The notes below the pieces were generated by a model, which saw nothing but the letters and a program-made list of their open reading frames with translations, made no database searches and had not been told where the DNA came from. A stretch of DNA of 64,000 nt. Origin: Candidatus Bathyarchaeota archaeon (lineage in GTDB: Archaea; Thermoproteota; Bathyarchaeia; Bathyarchaeales; Bathycorpusculaceae). A program made the position numbers and the translations under genes. The stretch spans positions 186,001 through 250,000 of the forward strand of contig JAOZHV010000059.1 of assembly GCA_026014725.1 (NCBI GenBank), given 5' to 3'. Shown piece by piece: positions 1 to 33,552 of this stretch (positions are counted from its first letter, which is position 1; each line of letters starts with the position of its first letter).

Positions 1-950
1 ACCTACAACGCACAGCACGCAAAATGGGCAAAGCAGTCATCGCCGCAACCACACACAAAGACATCCAACGCGACTTCGCACCAAACGTACACATCCACAA
101 ACGCTACGGCAAAGAAGTCACCGTAACATACCACCCAAAAGCCACAGCAAAACAATGCACCCTAACAAAACAAATCAAAATCCAACCCGGCACAAAACAA
201 GACTACCAACAACTAAGCCAATTCCACTACCGCACCACACGGCTACCACCAACAAGAAAAATCTTCACCCTAAAACACAAAAACCAACTCTGCGGAGTAA
301 TCGTCTACAGCTACCCCACACCCACAAGCTTCGGCAGAAGCAAAGTCTGGAAAGGCAACATAAAACAACTCCAAACAGAAGTCAGCGCAATCAGCCGCGT
401 AATCATCCACCCAAAATACCGAAGCATCGGCTTAGGAGAAAAACTCGTACACGACACACTACCGCTCGCGGGAACACCGCATATCGAAACCGTAGCAGTT
501 ATGGCAAAATACAACCCGTTCTTCGAAAAAGCAGGCATGCAAAAAATCGCACAAAGCACACCCAACAAACACGTCACAAACGCGCTACAAGAACTAGAAA
601 AACTCGGCTTTGACACAGCACTCATGGCATCAACAAACTACAACCAACAAAAAATCCAGCAAACAGGCACACAACCAATCATCAACATCCTAACAAACCT
701 CTCCAAACACGACCCAACCATACGCAGAAAACTCGCACCCACAAAAAACATCTACCCAAAACACCAAGAATTCACACAAAAAATCCAAACCCAAACCACC
801 ACACAACTCGCAGAAACACTAAAAAAACTCAGCTTCACAAACCAAACAAAAACCTACCTACACTGGCAAAGTAGCGATGGACCACTGCGGTTCGACGCCC
901 AGAATCCACCTACGTCTCCAAACCCTACACTCATACCCGCACCCCCTTGA
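1..950 (+). CDS. ABC ATPase fused to GNAT acetyltransferase (COG2401-like), C-terminal part
   Basis: The 5' end lies outside the window: the frame is open through base 3, so the Met at 24 is not the start. The first visible residues (LQRTARKMGKAVIAATTH) resemble the end of an ABC ATPase, with the switch (H-loop) His in ATTH. A GNAT acetyltransferase domain follows, with acetyl-CoA loop RSIGLG about 140 residues on. This order matches ABC-type ATPases fused to a predicted acetyltransferase (COG2401), whose substrate is unknown. Codon use is strongly A/C-rich up to about base 865. The last 25 or so codons lie inside the SRP RNA gene on the other strand, so the tail is probably not conserved. 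The assignment rests on motifs only. Confidence 0.7.
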   Translation, partial: LQRTARKMGKAVIAATTHKDIQRDFAPNVHIHKRYGKEVTVTYHPKATAKQCTLTKQIKIQPGTKQDYQQLSQFHYRTTRLPPTRKIFTLKHKNQLCGVIVYSYPTPTSFGRSKVWKGNIKQLQTEVSAISRVIIHPKYRSIGLGEKLVHDTLPLAGTPHIETVAVMAKYNPFFEKAGMQKIAQSTPNKHVTNALQELEKLGFDTALMASTNYNQQKIQQTGTQPIINILTNLSKHDPTIRRKLAPTKNIYPKHQEFTQKIQTQTTTQLAETLKKLSFTNQTKTYLHWQSSDGPLRFDAQNPPTSPNPTLIPAPP

Positions 951-5077: not shown

Positions 5078-5664
5078 CTGCCGTCTTTGCCCTCCAAGAA
5101 GTTTTTGATTATCAGTTTGCCGTCTTCGCAAAGGATTGATTCTGGGTGGAATTGTACACCGTAAATTGGATACTTCACGTGCCGTATACCCATGATTTCT
5201 CCATCATCTATGGCTTCAGCTGTAATCTGTAGGTTTGGCGGAATGGAATCTCGCTTGCCCGCTAGCGAGTGGTATCTCGTTGCAGAGAAGGGATTGCGGA
5301 CACCTTTGAAGATGCCTTTTTGGTCATGTTTTATGATGCATGTTTTTCCATGCATGAGCTTTTTTGCATGAGTGATTTTTCCGCCGAAAGCGTGGATTAT
5401 GCCTTGGTGACCTAGACAGACGCCTAATGTCGGTATGCTTGGGCTTAGGGTTTGCAGTATCGCGGTGCAGACGCCGAAGTATTTTTCGTCTTCTGGTGTG
5501 CCTGGACCTGGCGAAATCACGATTCTGTCGGGTTTAAGTTTGATTAATTCTTGCAGGTTGACTTGGTCGTTTCTGTAAACGATTGTTTCTGCGCCAAGTT
5601 CGCCTATGTACTGTACGAGGTTGTAGACGAATGAGTCGTAGTTGTCGATTATTAGTACCTTCAT
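5074..5664 (-). CDS. trpG: Anthranilate synthase glutaminase subunit
   Basis: Class I glutamine amidotransferase (196 residues) that feeds ammonia to TrpE. The nucleophile Cys sits in GVCLGHQG, the oxyanion loop is SPGPGTPED, and the His-Glu pair is in QFHPES. The same family includes the folate PabA, but the position directly after trpE with an ATGA overlap supports TrpG. Confidence 0.95.
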   Translation of the reverse strand: MKVLIIDNYDSFVYNLVQYIGELGAETIVYRNDQVNLQELIKLKPDRIVISPGPGTPEDEKYFGVCTAILQTLSPSIPTLGVCLGHQGIIHAFGGKITHAKKLMHGKTCIIKHDQKGIFKGVRNPFSATRYHSLAGKRDSIPPNLQITAEAIDDGEIMGIRHVKYPIYGVQFHPESILCEDGKLIIKNFLEGKDGR

Positions 5665-7092
5665 GTTTTTGTGTCTCCTGCGGCGTGTTCAAGCGCTTTC
5701 ATTAGTGCCTTTGCTTTGTGGTCGGTTTCAAACCACTCTTTTTCAGGTATTGAATCAGCTACTATGCCTGCGCCAACTTGAATGTAAGCTTGGTTGCCTT
5801 CTGAGAATAGCGTGCGTATGGTTATGGCAAAATCAGAGTTGCCGTTGCATGAGAAGTAGCCGACTGCTCCAGCGTAAGGTCCACGGCGTGTTGGCTCAAG
5901 TTCTTCTATGATTTCCATTGCGCGAACTTTGGGTGCACCTGAAACAGTGCCAGCTGGGAACACCGCTTTTAGGGCGTCGAAGCTTTCTAACTCGTCTTTT
6001 AAGTCGCCGATAACTTGGGAAACGATGTGTTGGACGTGGCTGAACTGGTGGACTTGCATGAAATCGGGAACGTTTACGGTTCCGTATTTGCTGATTCTGC
6101 CCAAATCGTTTCTTGCTAAATCAACCAGCATAACGTGTTCTGCACGTTCTTTTTGGTCTTTTAGCAGTTCTCTGCCAAGACGCAGGTTTTCTTGCGGGTT
6201 TGTCGTGACGGGCGTTGTGCCAGCGATTGGGAAAGTTACGACTTTTCGGTTGTCAACACGAACCAGCATTTCTGGGCTGGCACCGACGATTTGGCGTTTG
6301 TCGGATTTGTAGAAGAACATGTAGGGTGAGGGGTTAATCTGGCGCAGACTTTTGTAGAATGTCAGAAGGCTGCCTGTATATTTGAATTGGAAGCGTTTTG
6401 ATAGGACAACTTGGAATATGTCGCCTGCAGTGATGTATTGTTTGGCTTTTTTTACTGCTTTCTGGAAAGCCTGTTTTGTTGTGTTGACTTCGGGTTTGGT
6501 GTAGGTGAACGGTTCTTCTTCTACCGCTGGCTCTTTGAGTAAATCTTGAATTTCTTTGAGCCTGTTTTCACTTCTAAAATAGTAGTAAGCTTGATTTTGT
6601 GCGTGGTCAAAAACAAAACCATCCTCAAAAATGCCCATTTCCACATCAGGAAACTTTAGATCGTCTGGTTTTTGGCTGGGCAATTTTTCGATGTATCTGA
6701 TGGCGTCATAGGATATGTATCCTAATGCTCCACCGACAAAACGGAAGTCAACCATGTGGTTTGTGTAGGGTTGCAGGTGCTCTTGGATTAGTTTGAAAGG
6801 GTCATGGGTTTGTTGGGTGGTTGTTTGGTTTGTTTTGGTGTTGGTTATGGTGACTGTGCCGTTTTTGGCTGATATGATTATTTTTGAGTCGAACCCTAAA
6901 AATGAGTAACGGGCTAGTTTTTGTGGTCCTTCGATGGATTCGAGGAGGTATGCGGTTTTGTATTTTTGGTGGAGTTTTGAGAATATTTCTAGGGGTTGGT
7001 TTGTGTAGTTGAATTTAACATAGTTTATTGGATTGATTGTGAGTTGTGTTTGTGTTGGCGTTTTGCCAAAGATGATACCCCATTTTAATCAT
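5661..7092 (-). CDS. trpE: Anthranilate synthase subunit I (start region frameshifted)
   Basis: Converts chorismate to anthranilate. C-terminal chorismate-binding motifs are intact: GASPEMLVR, AGTTPVT, DLARNDLGRIS, GTVSGAPK, and GAGIVADSIPEKE. The uninterrupted frame starts only at 6755 (364 residues), but the same frame continues upstream with a normal TrpE N-terminus, including LLESIEG...ARYSFLG, the tryptophan feedback site. It contains no ATG, GTG or TTG. Removing one C from CCCC at 7078-7081 joins it to ATG at 7083 or 7092, giving MGIIFGKTPT... and about 473 residues, normal for TrpE. The gene is therefore either a consensus error or a start-region mutation. Confidence 0.92.
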
Positions 7093-17273: not shown

Positions 17274-17738
17274 TTGACTACTCCTCACGACGTTCCAGCA
17301 TCAAAATTCATCGACCGCTTATCACGGTACATTAGGGAAAACATTGACGAAGTTCAACCGCCTACATGGGCAACCTTCGTCAAAACAGGCACACATGTCG
17401 AGAAACAACCCCAAAACCCTAACTGGTGGTACACCAGAAGCGCAAGCATACTCCGCAAAGTCTACGTTCACGGGCCAATCGGACTGGAGAATTTGCGCTC
17501 TGACTACGGCGGAAGAAAAAACAATGGTGTTAAAAAGAATCACGTCACCAAAGCAGGCGGAAGCAGCATCCGCAAAATCCTCCAGCAACTTGAAAGTGCT
17601 GGTTTAATCCAGACTGTCAGGCCCAAAGGCAGGGTTATGACTCCTAAGGGTCGAAAGCTTATGCAGGAAGTTGCTGGCGACTTAGCAAAAGAAATGGTTA
17701 AAACTGCCCCTGAACTCAAGAAGTATCAAGGCGAATAA
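17274..17738 (+). CDS. rps19e: Ribosomal protein S19e
   Basis: Small-subunit ribosomal protein of archaea and eukaryotes, 154 residues. Typical segments: VPASKFIDRLSRYI, PPTWATFVKTGTH, WWYTRSASILRKVY, GPIGLENLRSDYGGRKNNG and the C-terminal winged helix ending GLIQTVRPKGRVMTPKGRKL. Start is TTG at 17274. First gene of an S19e-PDCD5-L39e-L31e cluster. Confidence 0.97.
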   Translation: MTTPHDVPASKFIDRLSRYIRENIDEVQPPTWATFVKTGTHVEKQPQNPNWWYTRSASILRKVYVHGPIGLENLRSDYGGRKNNGVKKNHVTKAGGSSIRKILQQLESAGLIQTVRPKGRVMTPKGRKLMQEVAGDLAKEMVKTAPELKKYQGE

Positions 17739-17742
17739 CGCG

Positions 17743-18072
17743 ATGTCGGATGATGAGCTTGAGCAAATTCGTAAACGAAAACTTTTGTCGATGCAAAATC
17801 GCCTAAGCGAGGAGCAACGGCAAGCTCAAGTTGAACAACAAATAGAACAGCAAAAACAGGCGCTCTTAGCAAAGATATTGTCGCCTGAAGCTCGGCAAAG
17901 ACTAAATAACCTTAAAATGGTTAAACGTGAGTTCGCTGAGCAAATCGAGTTGCAACTCATCGAGATGGCGCAATCTGGAAGGTTGCCGATGCCGCTGTCG
18001 GATGTGCAGCTCAAACAAATCCTAATTCAGCTTCAATCAAGGAAGCGAGAAACAACAATCAGAAGGATATAA
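17743..18072 (+). CDS. DNA-binding protein of the PDCD5 family
   Basis: 109 residues, all helical, basic C-terminus. The N-terminal DDELEQIRKRKLLSMQ and the core ILSPEARQRLNNLKMVK are family hallmarks. Archaeal members bind DNA or RNA in vitro and usually sit between S19e and L39e, exactly as here, 4 bases after S19e. Role probably ribosome- or chromatin-related. Confidence 0.94.
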   Translation: MSDDELEQIRKRKLLSMQNRLSEEQRQAQVEQQIEQQKQALLAKILSPEARQRLNNLKMVKREFAEQIELQLIEMAQSGRLPMPLSDVQLKQILIQLQSRKRETTIRRI

Positions 18073-18074
18073 AC

Positions 18075-18233
18075 ATGGCACGAGTAAAACCAACCGCAAA
18101 GAAACTCAGGTTAGCTAAAGCTGGCAGAGAATCACAGTCTGTTCCAACATGGGTTATTGCCAGAACTGACGGTAAAGTTAGAAGCAATCCTAAACAGCGC
18201 CGCAACTGGAGAAGCAGAAAAATAAAAGCATAG
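18075..18233 (+). CDS. rpl39e: Ribosomal protein L39e
   Basis: A 52-residue highly basic protein from ATG at 18075: MARVKPTAKKLRLAKAGRES, then SVPTWVIARTDGKV and a final RRNWRSRKIKA. Length and the VPTWVIARTxGKV...RRNWRRxKI pattern fit L39e, a component of the large-subunit exit tunnel. It starts 2 bases after the PDCD5 stop. Confidence 0.96.
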   Translation: MARVKPTAKKLRLAKAGRESQSVPTWVIARTDGKVRSNPKQRRNWRSRKIKA

Positions 18234-18248
18234 GAGAACCAGAAAACC

Positions 18249-18749
18249 ATGGCTAAAGAAACTAAACAAGAAGAGCAAATACCTGAAGATGAAGAATTAG
18301 AAGAATTAGCAGACTTACCTGACGAAGAAGCAGAATTGGAAGAAACTGCTGAACAAGAGCAGGCTCCAGTTGAAGAGCAACCAGTAGCCGAAGAGGAAGA
18401 AGCGGCAGAAGAAGAGAAAGGAAAGCCTGCGAAAAAGAAAAAAGAAGAAGAAATCGTAGAGGAAAGATTCTACACAATACCGCTACAAAGGGCATTGGTG
18501 CGTCCACCCAAAAAACGTGCTCCACGTGCAGTACAACTGATTAAAGCATTCATAAACAGACACATGAAGGTTGAAACACAGGTTTCCGAAGAAGAGGAAG
18601 AAGAAGAGCTATCCCGACTGATTATAAGCGAAGAAGTTAACGAGAAAATTTGGGGAAAAGGCATAGAGAAACCTCCACGCAGAATTAAAGTGCGCGCAAC
18701 CAAAGATAAAGACGGCAACGTAACAGTCTACTTAGCCGAAAACCAGTAA
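18249..18749 (+). CDS. rpl31e: Ribosomal protein L31e with long acidic N-terminal extension
   Basis: 166 residues; archaeal L31e is normally about 90. The L31e domain starts near residue 75 (ERFYTIPLQRAL, then RAPRAVQLIKAFINRHMK and IWGKGIEKPPRRIKVRATKD). The first 72 residues are mostly Glu, Pro and Ala, then a KPAKKKKEEE hinge. ATG at 18249 has GGAGA upstream and no later ATG precedes the domain, so the extension is probably translated. eIF6 often follows L31e in archaea but does not here. Confidence 0.93.
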   Translation: MAKETKQEEQIPEDEELEELADLPDEEAELEETAEQEQAPVEEQPVAEEEEAAEEEKGKPAKKKKEEEIVEERFYTIPLQRALVRPPKKRAPRAVQLIKAFINRHMKVETQVSEEEEEEELSRLIISEEVNEKIWGKGIEKPPRRIKVRATKDKDGNVTVYLAENQ

Positions 18750-28961: not shown

Positions 28962-29039
28962 GGGGCTTTCGGCTAGCTTGGTCCAGGCTTGTAGCCTCGG
29001 GCGCTATAGACCCCGGTTCAAATCCGGGAAGCCCCACCA
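28962..29039 (+). tRNA. tRNA-Pro (CGG)
   Basis: Acceptor GGGGCTT (28962-28968) pairs with AAGCCCC (29029-29035); discriminator A, encoded CCA at 29037-29039. The anticodon stem GTAGC/GCTAT encloses CTCGGGC, anticodon CGG at 28998-29000. T arm CCCGG-TTCAAAT-CCGGG. D stem has two G-U pairs. The 115-bp repeat begins 7 bases after CCA. Confidence 0.92.
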
Positions 29040-29045
29040 GTGTTA

Positions 29046-29160
29046 TTTTCTAGTAGTAGAAGAAGAGAGTGTCGCCCTTATTCATCATCTACCAGTGGGC
29101 TTAGCGGCGAGCTGCTTTTTTGTGTCAGCGTTTGAGGTGCGTTGCAGGCTGGTTGTGGCG
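29046..29160 (-). repeat. 115-bp inverted repeat, copy 2
   Basis: Reverse complement of 17027-17141 with one mismatch. Its minus-strand reading ends in the same 24 residues as the 16.2-17.1 kb protein (ATTSLQRTSNADTKKQLAAK and PTGR). Upstream of that, the frame stays open for about 30 codons with unrelated residues (GTDKYPTPEKLLLLEES) before a stop in the shikimate-kinase gene. Confidence 0.95.
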
Positions 29161-29227
29161 GATTCCTCAAGTAGAAGGAGCTTTTCTGGCGTTGGATATT
29201 TGTCTGTGCCGTTGAGTGTTGCTTTAG

Positions 29228-29722
29228 TTACAAAAGTTGCTCAATAATCCTGTCCACAGCAACCTTATCGCTAAGACCTGTCACGTCAATGGTTACATCG
29301 GCATACCGCCTGTAAAGCGGCTGCCTCTCCAAAAAAAGCCCATCCAACCCCTTCTCCCTTAAACCAACAACCCCTCTAATCGAAAAATTTACTCTACGCC
29401 GCTTAATCTCCTCCAAAGAAGCATCCAAAAACACCACTCTAGAGATACCCTTCAAAAAACCCATCGCTCTCGGCGAATATATGGAGCTACCTCCTGAAGA
29501 AATAACAGAATCACACACCGCACCTATGCCCAGTATGGCATTCTCCTCTAGCTCCAGAAACTTTTTCTCACCCAAACAATCGATTAAATCCTGCAATCTC
29601 TGGTTAGTATCCTGTTTAATAATCCTGTCAATGTCAATAAAGCGATAACCCAACCGCTTCGACAAAAGCAACCCTACACGACTCTTCCCCACACCAGACA
29701 TACCAATAAGAGTAACATTCAT
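29228..29722 (-). CDS. P-loop shikimate-kinase-like protein (bacterial AroK type)
   Basis: About 164 residues from ATG at 29722 (MNVTLIGMSGVGKS), starting at the Walker A motif as in AroK; the longer frame adds non-homologous residues. FIDIDRII matches the shikimate-binding F-D-x-D segment, and SSGGSSIYSP replaces the usual GGG triplet with GGS. Most archaea use an unrelated GHMP-type shikimate kinase. Adjacent to the 115-bp repeat at the edge of an accessory island. A different small-molecule kinase is possible. Confidence 0.72.
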   Translation of the reverse strand: MNVTLIGMSGVGKSRVGLLLSKRLGYRFIDIDRIIKQDTNQRLQDLIDCLGEKKFLELEENAILGIGAVCDSVISSGGSSIYSPRAMGFLKGISRVVFLDASLEEIKRRRVNFSIRGVVGLREKGLDGLFLERQPLYRRYADVTIDVTGLSDKVAVDRIIEQLL

Positions 29723-29996
29723 AACAAAGAATATAGGTACACACATTAATTTCATTTTTTGAGGCAGATTGCAGACTGGTTGTATAGCAAACCGCAAGCA
29801 GATGCACTGTTCTAACGCTAAATACTTCGCCTGTTAGATATTCATGAATTCTTCGATAACAACCGAGCTTTTCTAAAAAAATCTTGTAACCCTTTTATAT
29901 GGAAAAACTATTCAGTTCTGGTACCTTAACGGTTGATTCCATAAGGCTGTTACTTTTCGGTTGATAAAAAATCTGCAAACTTATTGGTTGCTTGTG

Positions 29997-30928: not shown

Positions 30929-31159
30929 ATGGAGTCAGAAGTGGTAGTAACTAAGAAAGGTCAGACAACCATTCCTGCAAGACTGCGCAAAAAGTTCAAG
31001 ATAGAAGAGGGAACACGCTTAGAAGTCGTCGAAACAGAGGAAGGAATCCTGTTTAAACCCAAAAAATCCTTTTGGGACCTGATTGGGTCAGGGGCACCAT
31101 ACGCTACTGTCGAAGAGGTAAAGAAGGACTTAGACAAGATGCGGGCTGAAGATGTCTAA
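30929..31159 (+). CDS. VapB-type antitoxin (AbrB/SpoVT fold)
   Basis: 76 residues. The N-terminal swapped-hairpin DNA-binding domain is visible (VVVTKKGQTTIPARLRKKF...TRLEVVETEEGILFKP); the acidic C-terminal tail probably binds the toxin. Its stop overlaps the toxin start by 8 bases, the usual order. Expected to bind and repress its own promoter. Confidence 0.88.
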   Translation: MESEVVVTKKGQTTIPARLRKKFKIEEGTRLEVVETEEGILFKPKKSFWDLIGSGAPYATVEEVKKDLDKMRAEDV

Positions 31160-31535
31160 ACGAGTCTACGATACGCGTTTTCTTGCGGAGGCTGTGTACT
31201 CCAAAGACTCCAGTTTTCAAAGAAGGGCGGAAGCAGAAAAGAGGAACCATGAAAGATACATTTCTACAGTAGCAGTGCATGAACTTTACCGGTTAACGTT
31301 AATGCGTGAGGGCAGAGAAACCGCCAAGCTTCGAATATCACTGTTAACGAAAACCTTCAAAGTTATCCCTGTTGACGAGCAAATTGCGGAGAGTTCTGCT
31401 GAATTGAGACAAAAATATCAGCTTTCGATGGGCGACAGCATGATAGCTGCAACAGCAGCCATGTTGGATGCGGTTTGTGTTTCCGATGACCCACACTTTA
31501 AGCAAATTAAAGAAATACGCACCGTTTGGGTGTAA
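31152..31535 (+). CDS. VapC-type toxin (PIN-domain ribonuclease)
   Basis: 127 residues. PIN acidic residues appear in order: Asp in YDTRFLAE, Glu in VHELYRL, Asp in MGDSMIAAT and Asp pair in VSDDPHF. PIN toxins cut tRNA or rRNA when unpaired with antitoxin. Convergent with the terminase gene, which ends 5 bases away. Confidence 0.88.
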   Translation: MSKRVYDTRFLAEAVYSKDSSFQRRAEAEKRNHERYISTVAVHELYRLTLMREGRETAKLRISLLTKTFKVIPVDEQIAESSAELRQKYQLSMGDSMIAATAAMLDAVCVSDDPHFKQIKEIRTVWV

Positions 31536-31540
31536 CATTA

Positions 31541-32992
31541 TTATCTGGGAATAGAAGCAAAGAAGGGCTCTTGTCCCATTTCTGCAGTTGCATAAACCGC
31601 TAGTGCCACCGCCCAGAATACGTCGTCATGTGTTCCTTGTGGGTGGTGGTAGCCTATGGTGCCGTCTTTGTTTAGGCTGTAGCGTTCCACGTTAAGTTCA
31701 TTGCATATGTCGCCTCTATACGGGCGCTCCCAGCTAAGTAGCGGGTAGAAGAATTGGTGGTTTGCCATGCGCTGTTTAAGCAGGCTTGCCATCTCGCTCT
31801 TGCGCGGCACGCTAAAGTTTACGCCTTCAGCGTTGTAGATTTTGGCGTTTTGCATGTCCGCTATGATGCTTGGACCTTCCCTTGTGAAGTCCACTCGGAT
31901 ACGCTCGAATTTGCCCCAGCGGTCCTGCAACGCTTTGAGGTAGCCCAGCACAGTTGCGTAGATGGTGGGTTGCTGGAAAATCTTGAGGTGGCGCAAAAAC
32001 AACCGCTCATTTTTACGTTCAACCACAGCAAGAACACTGTAATCGCGAGTCTGCGCCAAATCCAGCCCAGCATAAAATTGTCCTCGACGCTCTGTTTCTG
32101 GATTGTACTCTTTTAGGTCTTCACCACACGTTGCAGTTGTGCCAATGCAACTGGCGATTAGGCTCTGGGTTAGCCATACGTCTTGGTCTTCTGTCCACTC
32201 AGCCTCCATCTCCCTTCGCCAGCGGATTGGGTCATCGCCCATCTGCGTGCGGATTTTCTGTATGATGCTGGGTTTTAGTGGTCCGTTGGGTTCCATCGCT
32301 TGCTCCACGGTGACGTGGGAGGTTTTGTAATCGGCGAAGTCTTTGTGGGTGAACATTTTGTAGAAGACGCTGTCGGTGTGCCAAGGGGTGCTGGTGCAGA
32401 CAAATTTGCCGTTAGTCGTGCCCAAGGTGTAGAGGATGGCATCGTAGAGGGCTTGGTCGTTGGCTACAAAGTTGAATTCGTCAGCGTAAACCACATGCAA
32501 AGTTGGTCCTCGGATAGTTTCAGGGTTATTTGGGAAAGCCTCAATCACGCTGCCGTTAGAAAAGTGAATTTGAGTGCGCTGAGGCGCAAAAACCAATCCT
32601 GATGGAAGCTTGCGGGAAAGGGAGCCTATGCGGCTGAGGATACGTTTGGTTTGACGGTAGGATGGACCAACGATGCCGATGGCGCTGTCTGGATGCGTGA
32701 TTGCGTACCAAAGCAACAACGCGGCAACTATGAAACTTTTACCGCTCTGCCGACTCCACCGCGCAGCAATAAACTGGTTCTCAACAAACAGTTTGATAAA
32801 TTCTTCTTGATAGGCGTAGGGCTTAAATTTCAAAATTTCCCTGCAAAAATCAACTGGGTTAGCGCTGAGTCCCTCAGTTTTCTCAAGTGCCAACTCTTCA
32901 GCTAGCAAGTTACTGCGCTGGACTTTTTGCCACTGAATTAGATACTTGTTGGGGCGCATTGTTTTGGCTTTTACCCTCAAGGAGCGCGGCAT
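31541..32992 (-). CDS. Terminase large subunit (intact, orphan)
   Basis: 483 residues, full length for TerL. ATPase: Walker A SRQSGKS near residues 80-86, Walker B VVYADEF (Asp-Glu near 171), coupling motif CTSTPW near 200. RNase H-like nuclease: GLDLAQTRDYSVLAVVE (Asp near 311), DFTREGPS and THDDVFWAV (near 455). All catalytic motifs are intact. Tailed viruses use this motor to cut and package DNA. No portal, protease or capsid gene lies nearby. It overlaps the TerS-like gene by 83 bases. Confidence 0.92.
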   Translation of the reverse strand: MPRSLRVKAKTMRPNKYLIQWQKVQRSNLLAEELALEKTEGLSANPVDFCREILKFKPYAYQEEFIKLFVENQFIAARWSRQSGKSFIVAALLLWYAITHPDSAIGIVGPSYRQTKRILSRIGSLSRKLPSGLVFAPQRTQIHFSNGSVIEAFPNNPETIRGPTLHVVYADEFNFVANDQALYDAILYTLGTTNGKFVCTSTPWHTDSVFYKMFTHKDFADYKTSHVTVEQAMEPNGPLKPSIIQKIRTQMGDDPIRWRREMEAEWTEDQDVWLTQSLIASCIGTTATCGEDLKEYNPETERRGQFYAGLDLAQTRDYSVLAVVERKNERLFLRHLKIFQQPTIYATVLGYLKALQDRWGKFERIRVDFTREGPSIIADMQNAKIYNAEGVNFSVPRKSEMASLLKQRMANHQFFYPLLSWERPYRGDICNELNVERYSLNKDGTIGYHHPQGTHDDVFWAVALAVYATAEMGQEPFFASIPR

Positions 32993-33359
32993 ATTTTGCC
33001 TCCATGTCGTTTAGTTTTGCTTCAACCTCTCGGTAGCTCAGGTAATCGGCTAGAATTTCCTTGTAGGTTCGGGCTAACGTGGCGATGGCTTGTAGGCGCT
33101 GAACTTCCACTTTGTTTAGCCCCGGTTCTTTTGCTGCTTTGAGTGCACCCGCCAATTCCTTGAGCGTTTCTTCGACGCTGGGTAACTCGTCGGGCAGAGG
33201 CAGATTGGCTTTGGTTACTTGTTCGGATGGTACTAAGCCGAGGCGCTGGCATTTCAGCAGGATTGCGGTAGGTGTTCGCTTTAGGGTTGAGGCTATTACG
33301 TCTATGGGGGTGTTGGCTTCTATGAGTTTTTTGAGTTGAATTTCTTCTCGACGTTCCAA
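32910..33359 (-). CDS. Terminase small subunit-like DNA-binding protein
   Basis: 149 residues from TTG at 33359. An N-terminal helix-turn-helix (EIQLKKLIEANTPIDVIAST, RTPTAILLKCQRLG) is followed by a helical region and a C-terminal coiled coil (YLSYREVEAKLNDMEAKYAA), the layout of TerS. Its position directly before TerL, with an 83-base overlap, supports this. Sequence family not recognised beyond that. Confidence 0.65.
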   Translation of the reverse strand: MERREEIQLKKLIEANTPIDVIASTLKRTPTAILLKCQRLGLVPSEQVTKANLPLPDELPSVEETLKELAGALKAAKEPGLNKVEVQRLQAIATLARTYKEILADYLSYREVEAKLNDMEAKYAALLEGKSQNNAPQQVSNSVAKSPAQ

Positions 33360-33552
33360 GGGATTCCTTTAGTCATAGGCTTTCACAACAGTGCAGTGAG
33401 CAAGCTTGCTTTTGAACTATTTTGCGCTTAAAAAAGTCTGATTTACAAATACTTTTTAAATAATTGTACCTTAGAGCTCAAATTTAGTCATATTATTAGC
33501 AGTAATGGATCACGAAAAATCTCTCATTGAATTCTCTGCAAATAAAAAATAA

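Follow-up and report, generated by a model that had tools for sequence, protein, structure and literature searches.

The window analysed here, a stretch of 64,000 nucleotides (positions 186001–250000 of contig C59), lies in a 2.56 Mb assembly that is 97% complete, and the host of the gene pair it contains is a Bathyarchaeota archaeon, with Bathyarchaeota MAGs as its relatives in a named genome collection. The pair, predicted to encode the large (TerL) and small (TerS) subunits of a terminase, is flanked by a shikimate kinase gene at one end and by YhbY–Rpp21 at the other (Table 1). These neighbours (YhbY, RNase P Rpp21, shikimate kinase) are ordinary housekeeping genes, joined by a VapBC toxin–antitoxin (TA) pair, and lend no support to the "decayed island" in which the original prediction had placed the terminase. 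The clusters of portal-like, tail or head-tail genes that related proviruses possess are missing from the vicinity of the pair. That the window holds no other phage gene was nearly right; the exception is an ABC-ATPase/GNAT gene whose 3' portion occupies window 24–950 (+) and which comes after a second, different TerL at contig position 184060–185325, just beyond the window edge.

Table 1. Features of the terminase locus (window coordinates)
Feature	Position	Strand	Basis
VapB-type (MazE/AbrB) antitoxin	30929–31159	+	PF04014, 4.1e-11
VapC-type PIN toxin	31152–31535	+	PF01850, 3.4e-16; tail to tail with TerL, 5 bp between stops
TerL, terminase large subunit, 483 aa	31541–32992	-	ORF and translation; Pfam; PHROG_2; T4 gp17; motif conservation
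TerS, putative terminase small subunit, 149 aa, TTG start	32910–33359	-	ORF; homologues beside TerL; predicted helices
Remnant of the ancestral TerS start, ATGACTAAAGGAATCCCTTGG from ~33377	33360–33377	-	Alignment with the G011 and G018 copies
Promoter-like upstream part of the shared unit, common to the G011 and G018 copies; outer end inexact	33378–33470 (approximate)	-	Flank alignment; similarity limits

TerL is of full length and retains every ATPase and nuclease residue, as had been claimed for it. It matches Pfam Terminase_6N (5.5e-20; 72.4 bits, cut-off 22), with only a sub-threshold match to Terminase_6C, and PHROG_2 (terminase large subunit) at 2.9e-42; it also matches T4 gp17 in sequence. 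The model fold, of only moderate confidence, matches T4 gp17 and HK97 TerL, and its nuclease part matches the G20c and RB49 TerL nucleases. The Walker A region reads R78-W-x-R-Q-S-G-K85, Walker B is D171-E172, the coupling motif is S201-T202-P203, and the nuclease residues are D311, D368 and D456/D457; all of these ATPase and nuclease residues are invariant across the copies of the clade described below that retain the region. Judged by sequence and model, the protein combines the ATPase domain and RNase H-like nuclease domain of the T4 gp17/Terminase_6 type. Its C-terminal tail, MxPEPFLAVIPR, is common to the copies of this clade and the nearest structural proviruses and is absent from most distant TerLs.

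TerS overlaps TerL by 83 nt. The original prediction was correct on the overlap and less so on intactness: a frameshift has disabled the ancestral ATG, leaving a TTG to act as the start. Because a 1-nt loss puts the ancestral start out of frame, the frame opened by ATGACTAAAGGAATCCCTTGG meets a stop after 18 codons, and the TTG-started protein is short of ~7 N-terminal residues present in homologues. A three-helix N-terminal domain (helix-turn-helix) followed by a long helix is predicted. TerS had no Pfam or other family match, and a fold search gave no significant match; clear homologues adjoin TerL in viral contigs and proviruses, and its position and predicted helices fit a terminase small subunit. 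As protein families, TerS and TerL are nothing new.

Homologues of TerL occur in 49 of 101 relatives, with nine matches within the window's own genome, and gene maps of ~60 loci distinguish three contexts. Class A comprises proviruses with a tail tube (PF18906), tape-measure-like and tail proteins, followed by TerS, TerL and the ABC-ATPase/GNAT gene. This last gene was at first taken for a portal, which was wrong; it encodes an ABC-ATPase/GNAT protein. In class B, small genes and a TerS-like gene precede TerL and the ABC gene, with no recognised structural genes; one such module lies 31 kb from the window pair on the same contig, and it is its ABC gene that extends into the window. Class C is TerS–TerL alone (hereafter solo), and the window pair belongs to it. 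That class B module (C59:184060–186950; L042:7900–11951) has a TerL 52% identical to the window TerL, and modules resembling that of L042 are also present in G043, G018, G007, G025 and G013; possibly the class B module represents a second class of free-standing terminase.

The 15 solo copies examined, from 11 species and four genera, form one clade with support of 100/100 (IQ-TREE, 50 TerLs). This clade is nested among the TerLs of tailed proviruses, and its sister is a virus-type copy. It holds when 34 TerLs taken from IMG/VR contigs are added along with four further genome copies, the sole new member, from G116, being likewise solo; a scan of a named genome collection largely recovered the same TerL loci. 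No structural gene clusters of related proviruses lie near the 15 copies, most of which have several kb of sequence on both sides, and every copy is made up of exactly these two genes, the ABC gene that trails viral TerL being absent. The search for homologous pairs in related genomes that had been suggested thus did find pairs standing alone, and the locus lacks the portal, capsid and tail genes by which a provirus would be recognised. We reject the suggestion that the pair is a recently stranded piece of a virus, as the solo state is inherited by the whole clade (15/15 members). Copies are carried by 9 of the 32 genomes in the genus, some of which have broken ones only. In the assemblies of several genomes with solo copies, a close virus-type TerL is missing; overall, solo copies co-occur with virus-type TerLs (9/13 versus 20/78 genomes, P = 0.003; within the genus, P = 0.013), with P values that ignore phylogeny and bin quality. 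In the open-access library searched, we found no paper that describes terminases standing alone in this way.

The shared unit measures ~1.95 kb (promoter–TerS–TerL), and DNA similarity between copies at different loci runs from ~100 bp before the TerS start to at most ~30 bp past the TerL stop. Solo copies sit at different loci. In G018, host sequence after PolD–MazG matches that of pair-free species up to ~140 bp before TerS. G006 has the pair, together with a CHAT protease, in a stretch between two syntenic genes; the corresponding stretch of G013 holds other genes. A TerL relic lies between shikimate kinase and YhbY, the window's own locus, in two other species (G018 and G015); insertion there is therefore old, which further contradicts recent stranding. 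Neither terminal inverted repeats nor target duplications were seen in the flank alignments or at the window locus, the copies all being old and their ends inexact. No integrase was recognised among the genes neighbouring solo copies, and no att-like repeat at the window locus. The tRNA-Pro at 28962 was rejected as an attachment site, since its 3' end is not repeated, and ARAGORN placed no tRNA close to the other solo copies. Separately, relative to G018, G007 and G015, the S19e–PDCD5 operon is split from shikimate kinase and YhbY by an inversion-like rearrangement (window 17274–18749 and 28962–29797). The TerS side was rejected as the breakpoint that displaced the S19e operon to 17274, as the break, placed from the same three genomes, falls between S19e and shikimate kinase.

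Comparison with PolD2 (DNA polymerase D) bears on how the pair spread. The G000:C52 and G048:C24 copies, from different genera and at different loci, have a TerL protein identity of 0.89 versus 0.73 for PolD2, and fourfold-site values of 0.56 and 0.36, respectively. Between the window and G018 and G011, TerL is 85–86% identical (fourfold 0.53–0.55) and PolD2 79–80% (0.29–0.30), while against G013, the closest host compared (PolD2 85%), TerL reaches only 73%. Between genera TerL is less diverged than PolD2, which argues for horizontal transfer of the pair, the best explanation of these sequence comparisons even though synonymous sites are near saturation. The G000:C6 copy is 91.6% identical to that of G032:C37, flanks included, a likeness that may reflect transfer; as the contig is 3.2 kb long and a binning error is conceivable, it was left out of the evidence.

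At the PolD–MazG locus common to G011 and G018, the pair co-diverges with its host (TerL dS 0.88, PolD2 0.74), and TerL dN/dS is 0.07; other TerL pairs give ~0.05–0.10 and TerS ~0.07–0.26 (Nei–Gojobori). The solo pairs look functional and under purifying selection. Selection for another role, which had been raised as one reading of the intact motor, is upheld in outline by these low TerL values and the invariant catalytic residues; of what was to speak against it (homologues confined to viruses, neutral dN/dS or disabling mutations), we encountered only the frameshifted TerS start here and several broken copies. Decay is nevertheless part of the pattern, as some solo copies are broken and some loci keep TerL C-terminal relics only. 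Solitary relics of solo-type TerL mostly comprise the C-terminal end (~residues 419–483; L093:6720–6899, L191 ~5460–5740, L094:6347–6496, L049:7175–7264, L100:8383–8496 and L101:8433–8525), a bias that may stem from detection, this block being strongly conserved, or from deletion. Their interpretation as packaging cut points was discarded, given that those of G018 and G015 have a common, inherited boundary and carry no cargo.

Beyond the original prediction, the pair is multi-copy and horizontally mobile, and one of its sides is coupled to defence or TA genes. Where the window has VapC, other solo copies carry a different PIN or defence gene, and in G011 a VapB relic after TerL is the same gene as the window antitoxin (blastn to L050). 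A defence or TA gene lies on the TerL side in 11/16 copies and on the TerS side in 1/16 (Fisher P = 6e-4), and 6 PIN genes were observed within 1 kb of solo copies versus 0.13 expected from each genome's counts; the neighbour classes were set by family matches and reading after the pattern had been noticed, so the P values are approximate. The TerL side carries VapBC or PIN genes in the window, G013, G024, G009, G005 and G116, the VapB relic and a NucC-like nuclease in G011, IetS in G018, a CHAT protease in G006, a type II methyltransferase (R-M) in G000:C52, and TIR-APAZ with pAgo (SPARTA type) in G048. Genes on the TerS side include YhbY, PolD–MazG, ArgRS, HMG-CoA reductase, CDC48 (whose PADLOC IetA matches we read as AAA cross-matches), a UbiD-like protein assigned by sequence reading, and some unknowns. 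Five of the 16 copies have no recognisable defence neighbour.

Several further observations concern the surroundings of these and related terminases. A SPARTA-type operon of TIR-APAZ and short pAgo in a Bathyarchaeota genome (L057:6350–9215, -) is convergent with a solo TerL. Bathyarchaeota tailed proviruses (L045, L058, L067, L069, L070 and similar) end in TerS–TerL–ABC/GNAT, after which come type I R-M, methyltransferase or other defence-like genes; the cargo habit may accordingly predate the solo unit. A gene of 147–151 aa, divergent from TerS and, in those of its copies that were searched, matching nothing in Pfam or PADLOC, is kept in three related solo copies (L054:11592–12035; L110:10961–11416; L081, at the same place). 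At the G013 solo locus, a second TerS-like ORF without TerL (L054:16432–16818, -) lies near another TA pair.

From data that point to one origin, horizontal spread, many sites, purifying selection, decay and a defence or TA neighbour, we infer a satellite function. The pair belongs to one lineage of tailed-virus terminases that has parted from its virus and survives in Bathyarchaeota as a free-standing unit. We propose tentatively, giving the idea somewhat less than an even chance, that this unit acts as a minimal packaging satellite. Empty heads would come from a related tailed virus or an induced provirus, TerS would mark a packaging start in or near the unit, and TerL, its tail still of viral form, would dock on the viral portal and package chromosomal DNA. 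The unit and its neighbours would then travel inside virus particles, as in lateral transduction, and linked defence or TA genes would hitchhike and in return help to anchor the unit in its chromosome. This model postulates a packaging start, a particle and an insertion step; in a synonymous-constraint scan for a pac site, only the TerS–TerL overlap stands out. Contact with the portal or prohead is a role ascribed to the TerL C-terminus in other phages, and the match of the MxPEPFLAVIPR tail to that of structural proviruses fits continued docking on those portals.

One-sided cargo favours a packaging satellite over defence by packaging interference. On the latter account, which we hold to be unlikely though a serious contender, the pair is an exapted antiviral system: the host terminase would compete for viral portals, or cut or package the wrong DNA, so that the virus fails, and the pair would spread through protection and join defence genes as in any defence island. 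The associated defence genes, the intact motor with its viral-type tail, the purifying selection and the co-occurrence with virus-type TerLs all agree with such a system. A general defence island, however, predicts otherwise than defence genes almost only on the TerL side and mostly housekeeping genes on the TerS side; TerL also matched no PADLOC model, although absence from that library is weak evidence. Domestication for a cellular DNA-processing task unrelated to viruses appears improbable: low dN/dS and vertical persistence at the PolD–MazG locus (G011, G018) would suit such a role, but the pair is patchy even within the genus (9/32 genomes), its loci differ, decay is frequent, and the viral portal-side tail is kept.

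The several copies and relics that are clearly decaying, and the TA genes adjoining many copies, might suggest chance leftovers of decayed proviruses held by linkage to those genes. Leftovers of separate proviruses would scatter over the tree and keep different genes, whereas the solo copies are monophyletic, comprise exactly the same two genes every time with the ABC gene missing, and show low dN/dS, making this origin very unlikely. We also hold to be very unlikely a transposon-like element that moves by itself with TerL as recombinase; a ~1.95 kb unit at unrelated loci without an integrase would be compatible with one, as would the RNase H-like nuclease fold common to terminases and DDE transposases, yet the expected terminal inverted repeats and target duplications were not seen in the flanks, no terminase is known to join DNA ends, and the C-terminal tail is kept as in viral TerLs.

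Returning to the packaging satellite, the evidence suggests that the solo unit is a very small virus-exploiting mobile unit. Whether it is a categorically new mobile element, namely a two-gene, integrase-free, capsid-free terminase unit making adjoining chromosomal DNA the cargo of virus particles, is more doubtful, and we regard this as a possibility only; if true, a selfish pair (or the host) makes viruses the vehicles of defence genes. What moves those defence genes of the chromosome that lie outside recognisable mobile elements is a standing question, to which a recent answer in bacteria is lateral transduction by prophages and phage-inducible chromosomal islands (PICIs), where pac phages and PICIs move defence islands downstream of the packaging start (PMC12829572). 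A free-standing terminase lineage that crosses archaeal genera, usually with a defence gene at one flank, would amount to a dedicated transfer device far below the size of known satellites. A lone terminase need not mean a dead provirus, and a TerS–TerL pair that lacks further virus genes and precedes a defence gene offers a searchable signature.

Among known systems, examples of the nearest kind are the tailed (pro)viruses of Bathyarchaeia (BATPV1 and BATPV2, PMC11705971; Fuxiviridae and Kunpengviridae, PMC10848311). Judged by the proviruses analysed here, the solo unit shares with them the TerL family, the TerS–TerL overlap and the catalytic motifs, with likeness in the C-terminal TerL tail limited to the nearest proviruses found; their terminases adjoin head, tail and ABC-ATPase/GNAT genes, whereas the solo unit has none. 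Phage satellites (PICI, cfPICI, PLE and PICMI; PMC11389934) resemble it by hypothesis, in that it would work like a satellite through the use of helper-virus particles, a packaging function and defence cargo. Such satellites span 7–20 kb and hold an integrase as well as genes for regulation and replication, bounded by att sites (PMC13376191); the solo unit, in contrast, is ~1.95 kb, carries both terminase subunits, and has neither an integrase nor att sites at its ends, unlike satellites of the PICI type. The defence genes flank the packaging module on a single side, a layout that fits packaging in one direction from a start site and recalls lateral transduction (PMC12829572), although there the terminase resides in a complete prophage or PICI and here it is a free-standing pair. 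Like gene transfer agents, finally, the pair is a host-resident terminase under apparent purifying selection that could package host DNA. Gene transfer agents possess head and tail genes of their own and pass on mostly by vertical inheritance, whereas the solo unit has no structural genes and appears to move horizontally.
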